Source: Bacteroidales bacterium (GTDB lineage: Bacteria; Bacteroidota; Bacteroidia; Bacteroidales; UBA932). Taken from it: DNA of 54,264 nucleotides. The DNA lies in contig JAGAKR010000027.1 of NCBI GenBank assembly GCA_017625535.1, positions 1-54,264 of the forward strand, given 5' to 3'. Under the pieces are notes generated by a model. The model was given only the letters and a program-made list of their open reading frames with translations, searched no databases and was not told the DNA's origin. Position numbers and translations under genes: made by a program. Shown one piece after another: positions 20,669-54,264 of this stretch; the stretch's first letter is position 1; every line of letters starts with the position of its first letter.

Positions 20669-21304
20669 ATGGAACTGGACAAATACCTTCTGGAATACTC
20701 ACAGGAACAGGACCTTGTACTGCAATGGCTGCAGAAGCAGACCAATCTGAGGACCAACCACGCCCGTATGTTGTGCGGACCGGTTGAAGGGAAACTTATG
20801 GAATTCATTTCCAGAATGATAAAGCCCAAAAACATATTGGAGATAGGGGCATTTACAGGATATTCTGCAATCTGCCTTGCAAGGGGACTTGATGAGGGGG
20901 GAAGGGTTGACTCCCTTGAGTTGAATGATGAACTTGAAGACCTTATCCTGCAGGCCCACGAAAAGGCCGGTCTGGCAGATAAGATCACACTCCACATAGG
21001 TGATGCCAAGGAGACCCTCAAGAGGCTCAAAGAAGAGGGAAAAATGTACGACCTTGTATTCATAGATGCCAACAAGAGGGAGTATCCAACCTATTATGCA
21101 CAGGTTATGGAACTCGTGCGCCCCGGCGGCTGGATTCTGGCAGACAATGTCCTCTGGGACGGCAAGGTTTACCAGGACAATGTGCCCCAGGATGCCCAGA
21201 CACAAGGGATATTCAAATTCAATGAAATTGTGAGGAATGACCCTGCGGTGGAGAATGTAATCATTCCCCTCCGCGACGGCATGAACCTTATCCGCAAAAA
21301 ATAA
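20669..21304 (+). CDS. SAM-dependent O-methyltransferase (catechol/caffeoyl-CoA type)
   Basis: This is a 211-residue class I methyltransferase. Motif I is ILEIGAFTGYSAICLA. An acidic ribose-binding segment (VDSLELNDE) follows, then the metal-binding region DLVFIDANKREYPTYY, RPGGWILADNVLWDG and the terminal PLRDGMNLIRK typical of the YrrM/COMT-like family. The acceptor substrate is unknown. It is co-transcribed with the M16 peptidase gene. No terminator hairpin directly follows the stop; the structured element begins about 145 bp downstream. Confidence 0.92.
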   Translation: MELDKYLLEYSQEQDLVLQWLQKQTNLRTNHARMLCGPVEGKLMEFISRMIKPKNILEIGAFTGYSAICLARGLDEGGRVDSLELNDELEDLILQAHEKAGLADKITLHIGDAKETLKRLKEEGKMYDLVFIDANKREYPTYYAQVMELVRPGGWILADNVLWDGKVYQDNVPQDAQTQGIFKFNEIVRNDPAVENVIIPLRDGMNLIRKK

Positions 21305-21446: not shown

Positions 21447-21620
21447 CAGGTTCAGACCTGGAACCTGGCTGGAAATCTATTGCATCTTGGCCTGGCTGAG
21501 GAACTCGACAGCTGCGCTGTCTCAGACAAGCCTCAGCCTGCCGGCCCATCTGCAATGATTTCTTACGCCGTCCCAGGATTCACCTGCCCCCATTTGTTTC
21601 TGCCATTGCATATGCCAGAT
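21447..21620 (+). repeat. Structured repeat, copy 1 (hairpin A and conserved 3' flank)
   Basis: Hairpin P1 is CAGGTTC (21447-21453) with GAACCTG (21461-21467). Hairpin A spans 21479-21556: ATTGCA/TGCAAT at the base, then TGGCC/GGCCA, GGCTGAGG (21494-21501)/CCTCAGCC (21531-21538), and apical GACAGC-TGC-GCTGTC (21507-21521). An asymmetric internal loop, AACTC opposite TCAGACAAG, separates the upper stems. The 3' flank (CTTACGCCGTCCCAGGATTC at 21562-21581, and TTTCTGCCATTGCATATG at 21597-21614) is shared with the inverted copy at 54096-54264. No protein-coding potential is credible. Confidence 0.85.
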
Positions 21621-21629
21621 AATTATTAT

Positions 21630-21838
21630 GTACTCCCGCAAGTAATGGTAAGGAAAATCATGCCATCTCTGTTGCGCAGCGGCGTAGGCAATCCGTAGTA
21701 AGAGGCCTTAAGTTTCCGTCTGTTTGAGACAACGAAGTTGTCGAGTCAGGAAACAAGGCCTCTTACTGCGGGTTTGGTAGCCATAGCGGAGCACTCTGAG
21801 ATGGCCTGATTATTCCTGAGAATGGATTGCGGGAGTAC
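21630..21838 (-). repeat. Long imperfect palindrome (hairpin C) of the structured repeat
   Basis: This is a 209-nt palindrome. Outer arms GTACTCCCGCAA (21630-21641) and TTGCGGGAGTAC (21827-21838) pair perfectly. GCCATCTC (21662-21669) pairs with GAGATGGC (21798-21805). AGTAAGAGGCCTT (21697-21709) pairs perfectly with 21755-21767. GTTTCC (21712-21717) pairs with GGAAAC (21749-21754). The tip is GACAAC-GAA-GTTGTC (21728-21742). On the minus strand the internal loop under the tip reads ACTC opposite TCAAACAG, as in hairpins A, B and D. It ends 6 bp before the M23 stop codon, so it may also act as a transcription barrier for that gene. Confidence 0.85.
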
Positions 21839-21844
21839 GTGTCC

Positions 21845-23095
21845 CTACTGCAGAATCTGCATATACTCCTGAACGTATGACGCAATGGACAGGCTGTCCA
21901 TCTGGTATCTGTATTGCTGCATCTGAGCCTCAAAATCAGGCATCTTATCTTTGGAAACAGGCTCAACGCTCGGGCTCTCCATCTTAAGCGGATCAATAGG
22001 CTTTCCGTTCTTGTACACCCTGAAATCCAGATGAGGGCCGGTAGAAAGGCCTGTACTTCCCACATAACCTATAAGCTGTCCCCTGGATACACGTGTACCT
22101 ACAGATATCCCCTTGGCATAACCCCTCAGATGCATATATGAGGTTACATAATTCCCGGGATGCTTTATCTTTATGGTGTTGCCTCCGCCTCCTGCCCATC
22201 CTCTGTGGGTAACCACACCGTCGCCGAGTGCAACAACTGGTGTTCCGCTTGGGGCAGCATAATCCACACCTGTATGCGGCCTCACAATTTTAAGTACAGG
22301 ATGTTTGCGTGCATATGTAAAACGGGAACTTATACGGGTAAAATTGAGAGGTGCCTTAAGGAATGCCTTCTTGAGGCTTTCACCCTTTTCATTCCAGAAA
22401 GTGCTGCTGTTCTTCTCACCTGCATCAAACCTCACTGCATTGTAAACCTTGCCGGCGTGGGTGAACTCCGCATAATAAATCTTTCCAAGTCCCATAAACT
22501 CACCGTTATGGGTAAGCTCATCATACATTGCCACAAACGAATCACCTGCCTGCAGCCCAAAAAAGTCTATGGTACAATCATATATGTCTGAAAGTTTTAG
22601 GGCCATCATAACCGGCACACCTGCCTTCTGAACATCATTCCACAAAGAAGTGCTTATGGTAACCTCAGCCTTCTTCCTTAACGGAACCACCTCTTTCTCA
22701 TATATCCTTGCATACAATGAATCCTTCAAAGAAATAACCGCATAACTCAGATTGTCCAGTTCATAAACAAAGAAAGCCGCCTGCCCCAGAGAATCCTTCT
22801 CCCTCAACACTTCATATGAATTCCCAAGCTTTATCTTCTTCACGTCAAACACCCCTTCAGATGCCTTCAGTATCTTCTGCACCTGATTGGCCCCAACACC
22901 AAAATCTTCCATTATTGAGCCAAAGAAATCCCCCCTGCGCACCTCCCCCGGCTCCACATCATATTTTTCTATCTCCAGACCATACTTCAGCACAGGCTCC
23001 TCACAGGCAGCCCCAACGGGTTGAATCTCCTTATCTCCTCTACCAGAGCAACTTAAAGCAACAAAAGCCAAAACAGACAGTACAAAAAATCTCAT
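21845..23095 (-). CDS. M23-family metallopeptidase lipoprotein
   Basis: With the ATG at 23095 this is a 416-residue lipoprotein (MRFFVLSVLAFVALSC, Cys16). An N-terminal region (about 40-110, KYDVEPGEVRRGDFFGSIMEDFGV..) resembles the LysM/OapA-like domain of large M23 proteins, and a beta domain follows. The C-terminal M23 (LytM) domain has HTGVDYAAPSGTPVVALGDGVV, GGNTIKIKHPGNYVTSYMHL and GPHLDFRV. The usual HLH motif is HLD here, so the third zinc ligand is Asp or the site is altered. A murein endopeptidase or division-associated role is inferred. It is divergent from mraZ. Confidence 0.88.
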   Translation of the reverse strand: MRFFVLSVLAFVALSCSGRGDKEIQPVGAACEEPVLKYGLEIEKYDVEPGEVRRGDFFGSIMEDFGVGANQVQKILKASEGVFDVKKIKLGNSYEVLREKDSLGQAAFFVYELDNLSYAVISLKDSLYARIYEKEVVPLRKKAEVTISTSLWNDVQKAGVPVMMALKLSDIYDCTIDFFGLQAGDSFVAMYDELTHNGEFMGLGKIYYAEFTHAGKVYNAVRFDAGEKNSSTFWNEKGESLKKAFLKAPLNFTRISSRFTYARKHPVLKIVRPHTGVDYAAPSGTPVVALGDGVVTHRGWAGGGGNTIKIKHPGNYVTSYMHLRGYAKGISVGTRVSRGQLIGYVGSTGLSTGPHLDFRVYKNGKPIDPLKMESPSVEPVSKDKMPDFEAQMQQYRYQMDSLSIASYVQEYMQILQ

Positions 23096-23118
23096 AACAA
23101 AAATGTTTTCCAATTCAA

Positions 23119-51853: not shown

Positions 51854-52624
51854 TTATAGTCCGAACATTTTTTTTGCATTTGCAGTGGTTATACTGGCAA
51901 CCTCCTCAAGGGTGCACCCCTTTATCTGCGATATTTTCTCTGCAATATATACCAGATAACTGCTCTCGTTCCTCTTCCCCCTGAAAGGTACCGGTGTAAG
52001 GTACGGGCTGTCTGTCTCCAGTACAATCTTCTCCAGAGGTATCCTCTCTAGAGTTTTTGCAACACCGGCATTCTTGTATGTTGCCACCCCTCCTATACCA
52101 ACCATAAAATCACCGTATCCGCATATCCTGGAATATGTCTCCCAACTTCCGCTAAAAGCGTGGAACACTCCTCGCGGAACCTCTCCCCCAAGGGAATCAA
52201 GCACCTGGAAAATATCATCCGTAGCCTCCCTTGCGTGTATTATTACTGGAAGGCCTTTCCTGTATGCCAGTTTCAACTGCTGTGCAAAAACCTCTTTCTG
52301 CTGCGATATGAACTCTTTGCTCCAATAGCCGTCCATCCCTATCTCCCCTATTGCAACATAATTGTTTCTTTCAACCTCTTCCAGAACAAAATCCAGTTCC
52401 TCCCTCCAGTTCTCCGCTACAGATGTAGGATGAAGTCCTATCGCCTGCACCGCAAAATCCCCGCATTTCTCCGCTGCATTCCTCTGTCTCTCAAATGTGG
52501 TTGAATCAATTGCCGGGAAGATACACCTCACCACCCCGTTACCTTTTATCCTTGCAACCGTCTCATCAAAATCCCCGTCAAATGCCTCATCATAAAGATG
52601 GGCATGGGTATCTATAAACTCCAT
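51854..52624 (-). CDS. tatD: TatD-family metal-dependent hydrolase (DNase)
   Basis: This is a 256-residue TIM-barrel amidohydrolase-like enzyme. Metal ligands are FIDTHAHLYD, AIGEIGMDGYW, LPVIIHAREATDD, GVFHAFSG and VLETDSPYLTPVPFRGKRN. Known members show 3'-5' exonuclease activity on DNA or RNA. The ATG at 52624, overlapping the dprA stop by one base (TGATG) and spaced 5 bp from GAGG, is preferred; an ATG 3 bp upstream is possible. Confidence 0.94.
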   Translation of the reverse strand: MEFIDTHAHLYDEAFDGDFDETVARIKGNGVVRCIFPAIDSTTFERQRNAAEKCGDFAVQAIGLHPTSVAENWREELDFVLEEVERNNYVAIGEIGMDGYWSKEFISQQKEVFAQQLKLAYRKGLPVIIHAREATDDIFQVLDSLGGEVPRGVFHAFSGSWETYSRICGYGDFMVGIGGVATYKNAGVAKTLERIPLEKIVLETDSPYLTPVPFRGKRNESSYLVYIAEKISQIKGCTLEEVASITTANAKKMFGL

Positions 52625-53718
52625 CATTTCCTCAAATAATAGTCTGTATTGTTCTTTACCGCAATCTTTCCCTCCAGTTCCAACTCAAGGAGCAATATGG
52701 AGAGGGTATCCCAATCCAACCCTGTTGCAGTGCACAACTGCTCTACAGATAGCGGCCTATCAGACTTTAAAGATAGCAATATTTTCTCCTTGTTGCCCAC
52801 TTGGTATGAAAATAATTGGGGCTGGAATGAACTGTCGGGAAGAAAAGTTTCACTCCATCCCAGAGCTGAGGGAATTGCTGAGGGGGAATTGTATATTGCG
52901 GCAACATTTTTTGCTATGAGATAATTGCATCCGAACGAGTTCGGATCAGTAACCCTCCCCGGTACTGCAAAAATATCCCTGTTGTAGCTGCAGGCATACT
53001 CTGCAGTAATCATTGCTCCTCCCTTCACCCTGCTCTCCACCACTACAAGCCCCTGGGTTATGGATGCTATTATCCTGTTCCGCTTTATGAAGTTCAACCT
53101 TACTGGCTGTTCCCCACGGGGAAATTCAGTGAGTATCCCACCTTGTCTAACCATAGCCGCCGCAATGTCGCGGTGCCGGGACGGATAAACCATATCCATC
53201 CCATTTGGAAGTACTGCAACTGTCTCCAGTCCGGCCTCAAGGGCAGCCTTGTGGGAGGCTATATCAATCCCATATGCCAGCCCGCTCACAACAAGAGGTT
53301 TATAACTGTGCAGATCCGAAACAATTCTGGAGCACATCTCTTTTCCGTATGTGGAGGCAAGCCGGGTCCCAACCATAGAGATGCTGTACAGGGCATTGAG
53401 GTCTGCTGTACCCTTGTAAAAGAGCATTGCCGGGGCATCCTCAACCTCCATAAGGAGCTTCGGGTATCCCTCATCCCCATAAAACAGCAGTTCCACACCT
53501 TTCTCCCTGCACCATTCCACCTCCTGTTGCGCCCACTCCAGATTCTCCCCGCTGAACGCCTCCTCCAGAAGGGGCCTCACCTTCTCCATATCTGCACTCT
53601 CCATATTATCCAACACACCCTGTGCCGATCCATAAACCTCCAGCAATCTGTTGCACTTCCCGCTCCTGTAAAGGAAAGCCTTTGCCAGCGCACACCTCAA
53701 AACAATTTCATCACCCAT
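52624..53718 (-). CDS. dprA: DNA-processing protein DprA (Smf)
   Basis: This is a 364-residue protein with an N-terminal SAM/HhH-like region (about 1-70), a Rossmann-like DprA core (about 85-285: MVGTRLASTYGKEMC, VSGLAYGIDIASHKAALEAG, VLPNGMDMVYPSRHRDI, RNRIIASITQGLVVVESRVKGGAMITAEYA, FAVPGRVTDPNSFGCNYLI) and a C-terminal winged-helix domain (about 305-364). It loads RecA on incoming single-stranded DNA in transformation. A strong GGAGG precedes the ATG by 5 bp. It is the first gene of its operon, and its upstream region is the non-coding structured stretch. Confidence 0.95.
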   Translation of the reverse strand: MGDEIVLRCALAKAFLYRSGKCNRLLEVYGSAQGVLDNMESADMEKVRPLLEEAFSGENLEWAQQEVEWCREKGVELLFYGDEGYPKLLMEVEDAPAMLFYKGTADLNALYSISMVGTRLASTYGKEMCSRIVSDLHSYKPLVVSGLAYGIDIASHKAALEAGLETVAVLPNGMDMVYPSRHRDIAAAMVRQGGILTEFPRGEQPVRLNFIKRNRIIASITQGLVVVESRVKGGAMITAEYACSYNRDIFAVPGRVTDPNSFGCNYLIAKNVAAIYNSPSAIPSALGWSETFLPDSSFQPQLFSYQVGNKEKILLSLKSDRPLSVEQLCTATGLDWDTLSILLLELELEGKIAVKNNTDYYLRK

Positions 53719-53821: not shown

Positions 53822-53861
53822 ACCCTTGACTCAGGGTATAACATAGTCCCTCGCTCAGGGA
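53822..53861. repeat. Two mini-hairpins carrying CTCAGGG
   Basis: ACCCT-TGACTC-AGGGT (53822-53837) and TCCCT-CGCTC-AGGGA (53847-53861). A third CTCAGGG follows at 53874-53880 inside hairpin D. Confidence 0.6.
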
Positions 53862-53862
53862 G

Positions 53863-53997
53863 TGATGAGGCTGCTCAGGGATAAAATTCATCTTGACGGC
53901 GAACTCCTCCTTTTAGTCCTCTTGCAGAGGCCTAACGTCGTCAGACAGGCGCCGTCACAAGACAATGAATTTTATGCCCTCACTTACCGCCTCATCA
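53863..53997 (+). repeat. Long imperfect palindrome (hairpin D) of the structured repeat
   Basis: Arms TGATGAGGC (53863-53871) and GCCTCATCA (53989-53997) pair perfectly. ATAAAATTCAT (53881-53891) pairs with ATGAATTTTAT (53965-53975). GACGGCG (53895-53901) pairs with CGCCGTC (53950-53956). The tip is TTAG-T-CCTCT-TGC-AGAGG-C-CTAA. AACTC (53902-53906) faces TCAGACAGG (53941-53949), the same asymmetric loop as in hairpins A, B and C. Confidence 0.8.
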
Positions 53998-54095
53998 TCC
54001 ATTCCCTCGGGCCAATGTTTCCCCCACATCAAGTATGCAGTCAAGATGTCAGATTCAAGTATTTAAAGTATTATGGATTCAGATTTACAGCATGA

Positions 54096-54264
54096 ATCCG
54101 GTATATGCAATGGCAGAAATATAGGTGCTATGTGAATCCTGGAACGGCGTAAGCAATCATTGCAGATGAGCCTGCAGGCTCAGGCCTGTTTGAGCCAACT
54201 TCAGTTGGCGAGTTCCTGAGCCAGGCTCAGATGCAATAGATTGCAAGCCTGGTGGAAGGCTGAA
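54096..54264 (-). repeat. Structured repeat, copy 2 (hairpin B and conserved flank), inverted
   Basis: Homologous, in reverse complement, to 21451-21620. Hairpin B spans 54159-54237: ATTGCA/TGCAAT, TGAGCCT (54167-54173)/AGGCTCA (54223-54229), GGCTCAGG (54177-54184)/CCTGAGCC (54215-54222), and apical GCCAAC-TTCA-GTTGGC (54194-54209). On the minus strand the internal loop is AACTC facing TCAAACAGG. Outer hairpin AGCCT/AGGCT is at 54246-54261. The flank CTTACGCCGTTCCAGGATTC (minus strand) matches copy 1 with one change. The element may continue past the window end. Confidence 0.85.

Follow-up and report, generated by a model that had tools for sequence, protein, structure and literature searches.

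Integron attC sites keep their structure more than their sequence, work as one strand of DNA in folded form and carry bulged bases. REP, BIME and REPIN elements are described as dispersed intergenic palindromes that occur in inverted pairs with variable spacers, as homo- or heterodimers, and REPs are given a length of 20–40 bp (PMC3733652). For Bacteroidetes, one account of TnpA-REP subclass 2.6 (RAYT group 5) reports 'atypical secondary structures' with copies elsewhere and, as characterised there, no consensus GT[AG]G (PMC6006769).

The window, i.e., the whole analysed stretch of 54,264 nucleotides, is contig 22 of a 2.18-Mb, 31-contig genome, whose relatives in the named collections were Bacteroidales MAGs. 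It contains copies of a structured repeat, family A. Like REP/BIME/REPIN elements with their TnpA-REP (RAYT) enzymes, family A is dispersed, intergenic and found in inverted dimers; unlike REPs, it is about 200–250 nt long, has several covarying helices and no Y1 gene beside it, and reaches 1–15 matches per A-bearing genome. As for the REP GTAG/CGTC tag, many copies of A carry GGCGTAGGC or GGCGTAAGC on the minus strand, where these letters adjoin helix P3 and do not stand at the base of the outer stem (by eye). Subclass 2.6 belongs to the same phylum and shares atypical structures with dispersed copies, but its structures border the gene and are described as weaker in that account, whereas A was not beside any Y1 gene examined. 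The resemblance to attC would lie in the general features named above, and no cassette array was noticed. Structured RNAs in Rfam 15 likewise combine covarying helices with conserved loops, but no family was reached by A at the gathering threshold, and a permissive search gave two chance-level hits only. No description of the family was found among the results listed by searches of one open-access library.

Family A is dispersed, conserves its fold more than its sequence, is absent from three orthologous intervals in relatives, and stands mostly in inverted pairs in the window genome. Together with a second family, B, it is tentatively interpreted, at just under an even chance, as a large REP-like non-autonomous mobile element whose active form would be one DNA strand in a folded state and which may be moved by a Y1/HUH enzyme.

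The coordinates of the features are collected in the table. The two copies from which the sequence-only reading started were recovered where it had placed them (w1 against 54096–54253 on the minus strand, 82% identity, E 2e-38), and its count of two was one too low, as w3, the inverted partner of w1, had been overlooked. Copy w2 lacks the outer 5' arm because the contig end falls inside it. The arms of w3 are GTACTCCCGCAA/TTGCGGGAGTAC (by eye), and the letters of its P3/P4 are replaced by AGTAAGAGGCC/GGCCTCTTACT, a clear compensatory example.

Coordinates of family A copies, their parts and associated features (window positions, unless a locus label beginning with L is given)
Feature	Position	Strand	Remarks
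Family A copy w1	21447-21620	+	128.6 bits; model core 21452-21585
w1 outer arms	paired as far as about 21412 and 21620	+	by eye
w1 helix P3	21472-21477/21557-21562 + 21479-21484/21551-21556	+	bulged T 21478
w1 helix P4	21489-21492/21543-21546	+	
w1 helix P5	21494-21501/21531-21538	+	
w1 tip hairpin P6	21507-21512/21516-21521	+	triloop TGC on plus, GCA on minus
w1 conserved internal loop	AACTC 21502-21506, TCAGACA 21522-21528	+	minus strand TGTCTGA..GAGTT
w1 conserved 3' segment TTACGCCGTCCCAGGATTCAC	21563-21583	+	by eye
Family A copy w3	21630-21838	-	model core 21665-21809; 54.3 bits, E 1.5e-11
Family A copy w2	54264-54096	-	149.9 bits; 5' arm cut
O-methyltransferase gene (PF01596), left flank	20669-21304	+	points at pair w1/w3
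M23 peptidase gene (PF01551), right flank	21845-23113	-	points at pair w1/w3
DprA-type gene (PF02481) adjoining B copy	52624-53718	-	same reading direction as B
Long hairpin of family B (w2 partner)	53848-54067	-	
Family B copy	L085 2500-2720		
Family C	L092 2041-2112; L220 328-394		also L225 and L226
Palindrome D around Y1-like gene	L023 1300-1600 and 2640-2870		
TTCCCGACA	incl. 28452, 45479, 53744	+	8 places in all
TTCCCGACA	incl. 29359, 52833	-	

Within the outer arms (P1) of family A lie a putative small hairpin (P2) and a long one, which is built from P3 (containing a bulged T), P4, P5, the internal loop AACTC/TCARACA and the tip P6; a 3' segment, TTACGCC..CAGGA, is well conserved. P2 is ambiguous, an invariant GGC being pairable with either an upstream or a downstream GCC. 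Full model matches cover 132–159 nt without the arms. Two copies gave fold z values of −4.10 and −4.16, with 0/200 and 1/200 shuffles folding as well. The P5 (GGCTGAGG/CCTCAGCC versus GGCTCAGG/CCTGAGCC) and P6 (GACAGC/GCTGTC versus GCCAAC/GTTGGC) examples of compensatory change given by the sequence-only reading are literally present. For P4 of copy 1, the GGCC/GGCC pairing stood, but the arms are TGGCC and GGCCCA and the outer T is unpaired. That loops are better conserved than stems applied to P4–P6 and the outer arms, which are the most variable parts, and not to much of P3, which is also highly conserved.

Covariation was assessed on two alignments. In the sequence-only alignment A1 (27 of the 58 A matches), 93% of the cells were paired and 17 of 34 pairs showed two-sided change, and pairing fell to 28–41% when the partners were slid. 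P6 scored low there because the register of short-tip P6 was one column off. Alignment A2 (52 matches from 48 loci, 48 distinct model-aligned rows) corrects this register but is itself fitted to the structure; it had 94.5% paired cells, two-sided change in 27/34 pairs, and 216 two-sided cells as opposed to 59.7 in shuffles. The covariation score was reached by none of 500 column shuffles. One of five measures, that of further pair types, was not above shuffles on A1 (471/500 as high) and was above them on the larger alignment (3/500 as high). Under a home-made, R-scape-like tree-based null (40 simulations, 36 copies), nine column pairs were significant at E ≤ 0.05, all nine inside the predicted structure of 40 pairs. 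RNAalifold alone returned much the same P3–P5 (28 pairs, 13 two-sided), with no P6 and no proposed P2. Thus, with many copies and significant covariation confined to the structure, the proposal that a structure rather than a sequence is selected or replicated was supported.

The outer arms differ between copies and subfamilies, yet pair within a copy: in 35 copies, own arms paired at a mean of −29.7 kcal/mol and arms of different copies at −16.0, and the own partner was the best of all in 13/35. The 36 copies of the strand and tree tests were left after dropping eight partial, duplicate or contig-end copies, and one more was dropped for the arm test. Such long self-complementary arms would also suit ordinary DDE-type MITEs that are moved as double-stranded DNA and keep their pairing by quasi-palindrome template switching instead of selection. 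The P4–P6 hairpin was wholly lost in two copies, G022:C55:4984-5052 (L073) and G012:C85:8925-8996 (L071), which is consistent with replication slippage between flanking CATCTG repeats and would fit MITEs as well. Against them speak the differences of the arms between subfamilies, the conserved unpaired loops, which template switching alone leaves unexplained, and the failure to recognise, by eye, a transposase or any other recurrent protein beside copies among the 25 ORF clusters listed; these were mostly flanking genes common to orthologous loci, or frames through repeats. A MITE origin is considered very unlikely.

A covariance model built from 27 copies gave 15 matches in the window genome and, counting some partial ones, 58 in the genus, spread over 10 of the 39 genomes searched, far more than the two copies first noticed. 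With stricter filters, A was found among 295 genomes of the order in the window's genome only, and it is confined to one genus, a group of gut Bacteroidales, as far as searched. A 23-base pattern was found in 30 stretches of a genome-contig collection, all of them Bacteroidales MAGs (isolates RGIG399, RGIG4631, RGIG7222, RGIG9123, SIG149 and SIG161), where a first, over-long pattern had given no matches; two patterns gave none in viral contigs. Similar copies form genome-specific clusters. By flanking-gene identity, the A-bearing genomes look nearest to the window genome, and the presence of A may therefore simply follow a clade. Four contigs of the window genome (the window contig, 12, 14 and 27) have an end that falls inside an A copy or no more than two bases from one, so A copies account for these assembly breaks.

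Beyond what the sequence-only reading had proposed, A is a dispersed insertion and usually one half of an inverted pair in the window genome. It was absent from three orthologous intervals in relatives. Between the matched gene ends, the window locus has 60 bases in G009 versus about 587 here, the C8 locus 69 in G022 versus about 737, and the C13b/c locus 35 in G024 versus 481. The empty C8 interval of G022 holds an apparent single bidirectional terminator, and several A copies adjoin terminator-like hairpins (by eye). At the window locus, G022 carries a copy of B together with another hairpin, C. Other relatives were uninformative because the two genes were unmatched as neighbours there, and for the C13a locus, the two genes were not found side by side in any relative. 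The three empty sites are too diverged for element ends, a footprint or a target-site duplication to be read. Both flanking ORFs were called at 38 of 58 A or B loci, of which 29 were convergent, nine co-directional (6 + 3) and none divergent; the longest-ORF call behind these orientations is crude, C16 being scored as co-directional and a locus with the same right flank as convergent. The flank table comprised 44 of the 58 A matches.

The motif TTCCCGACA occurs eight times in the window (0.21 expected; eight reached by 0/100 shuffles) and recurs in many other loci, in a few cases directly after a stop codon. It was rejected as an insertion target: TCCCGACA was found ≤300 bases upstream in only 14/55 loci, and the motif is present at an empty site. 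It is possibly an uptake, chi-like or 3'-UTR motif.

The 15 A matches of the window genome lie at 12 loci. At nine of the ten with a readable 3' side, a second long hairpin followed A (three AA, five AB and one AC pair), and at the tenth, C12c, short tandem hairpins did. All three AA pairs run plus then minus, with members from different branches of the tree. Two loci with one common flank carry the element pair in opposite orientations with respect to it. Identity is sometimes lower between copies at loci with a common flank than between copies of one genome (C16 versus G024_C65b 63%, C16 versus C8 in the same genome 92%), and replacement, conversion or re-insertion can be the reason; as a counter-case, G007_C44 and G024_C62, with both flanks common, were 97% alike.

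Family B hairpins are likewise large and structured, about 200–250 nt with arms, and have conserved loops of their own; the family had 33 matches in five of the 39 genomes, all five A-bearing. Direct sequence homology between A and B was considered and dropped, as only the loop motif TGTYTGA..GAGTT was found in common (by eye). The family C hairpin (ATTCGACGGTTGCRAGTTATT..AATGACG..GGAGACT) adjoins A in the window genome and B in G022. At L061 (G009:C26), another long palindrome, GAGGGAGATGATTGTGGAGG..CCTCCACAATCATCTCCCTC, lies 3' of A.

Mismatches within the helices were strand-asymmetric. On the plus strand, A had 37 A.C cells versus 13 G.T in 48 distinct rows, or about 16 versus 5 as independent events by an approximate hand count that includes misaligned rows. 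B had 84 G.T versus 2 A.C (24 of the 33 B matches), 43 of the 84 falling in two columns where G.T is almost constant, and the B structure was taken from a predictor that accepts G-U. The A minus strand was more stable than the plus strand in 36/36 copies (mean gap 14.8 versus 9.5 kcal/mol in shuffles), and B plus more stable than B minus in 24/24 (13.9 versus 11.8). Since shuffles alone give 9.5 of 14.8 and 11.8 of 13.9 kcal/mol, composition explains most of the gap, and the p values of 6.6e-5 and 0.012 are overstated because the copies are related. The preferred folding strand, as predicted, is probably minus for A, opposite to that of the sequence-only reading, and plus for B; the shared loop motif lies on exactly these strands in both families (by eye).

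This asymmetry in mismatches and stability, the latter exceeding that of shuffles, and the conserved internal loops would also be expected if A and B were structured non-coding RNAs, either own genes or 3' UTR domains, transcribed from A-minus and B-plus, with dispersal secondary. This is judged unlikely, as the A–B spacer is not conserved (by eye), A occurs in one genus as far as searched with genome-specific clusters of similar copies, and the tips carry loops known to be stable in DNA. The same asymmetry would suit a SINE-like, retro-mobile structured RNA copied by a trans-acting reverse transcriptase, which is regarded as highly improbable.

GNA and GNNA loops form extraordinarily stable DNA mini-hairpins (PMC4686876). 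On the preferred strand, the tip loop was GNA in 8 of 13 short-tip A copies (8/17 with four near-identical TTCA copies included), N taking three values; the others were TTCA (three), AAA and TCT, and a small loop is lacking in long-tip copies. In RNA, loops of the GNA and GNNA types stand out less. For B, 18/24 tips were GNA, with N taking all four values, and one was GTTA; the rest were TCA, AGA and TTGA. The GNA tips are a hint, not proof, of single-stranded DNA rather than RNA.

The window genome has two Y1_Tnp-like genes, one above and one below the Pfam cut-off; the best NCBIfam match of each is a REP-associated tyrosine transposase, far below the cut-off. The contig 18 gene (327 aa) lies between direct repeats of D, a long imperfect palindrome. 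This layout is RAYT-like and serves as a precedent within the genome, although its repeat is unusually long and is not A; D was found at three places in the window genome and in 0/38 other genomes. No A matches were found in 27 stretches around Y1_Tnp that covered 25 of 62 Y1 matches (incomplete genomes), among them all ten in A-bearing genomes. A simple association of A with Y1 (PF01797) was not supported, as Y1_Tnp was present in 6/10 A-bearing versus 21/29 A-free genomes. No Y1 was detected in four A-bearing genomes, among them G005 (90% complete), which has 11 A matches. With no A near the Y1 genes examined and Y1 presence not tracking A, a mobilising enzyme is proposed by analogy only.

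In the preferred reading of mobile elements acting as single-stranded DNA, the active form would be one folded strand, A minus or B plus, exposed e.g. during replication. A trans-acting HUH/Y1 enzyme of the TnpA-REP/RAYT type might bind the conserved loops and cut and join near the arms, and selection for folding, perhaps with arm-to-arm template copying, could keep the two sides of each stem in step. It is possible, if doubtful, that A, B and perhaps C and D form an undescribed superfamily of long multi-helix single-strand folds, which would insert between convergent genes as inverted pairs of unlike members and be recognised in trans via conserved loops, with the fold, and not a terminal sequence, as the transposition substrate.

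In our judgement, it is unusual for a dispersed bacterial repeat to show significant covariation of its structure. The pairs, deletions and empty sites of family A make the mechanism testable, and its copies provide a natural and still evolving data set on the way in which a protein may read a single strand in folded form.
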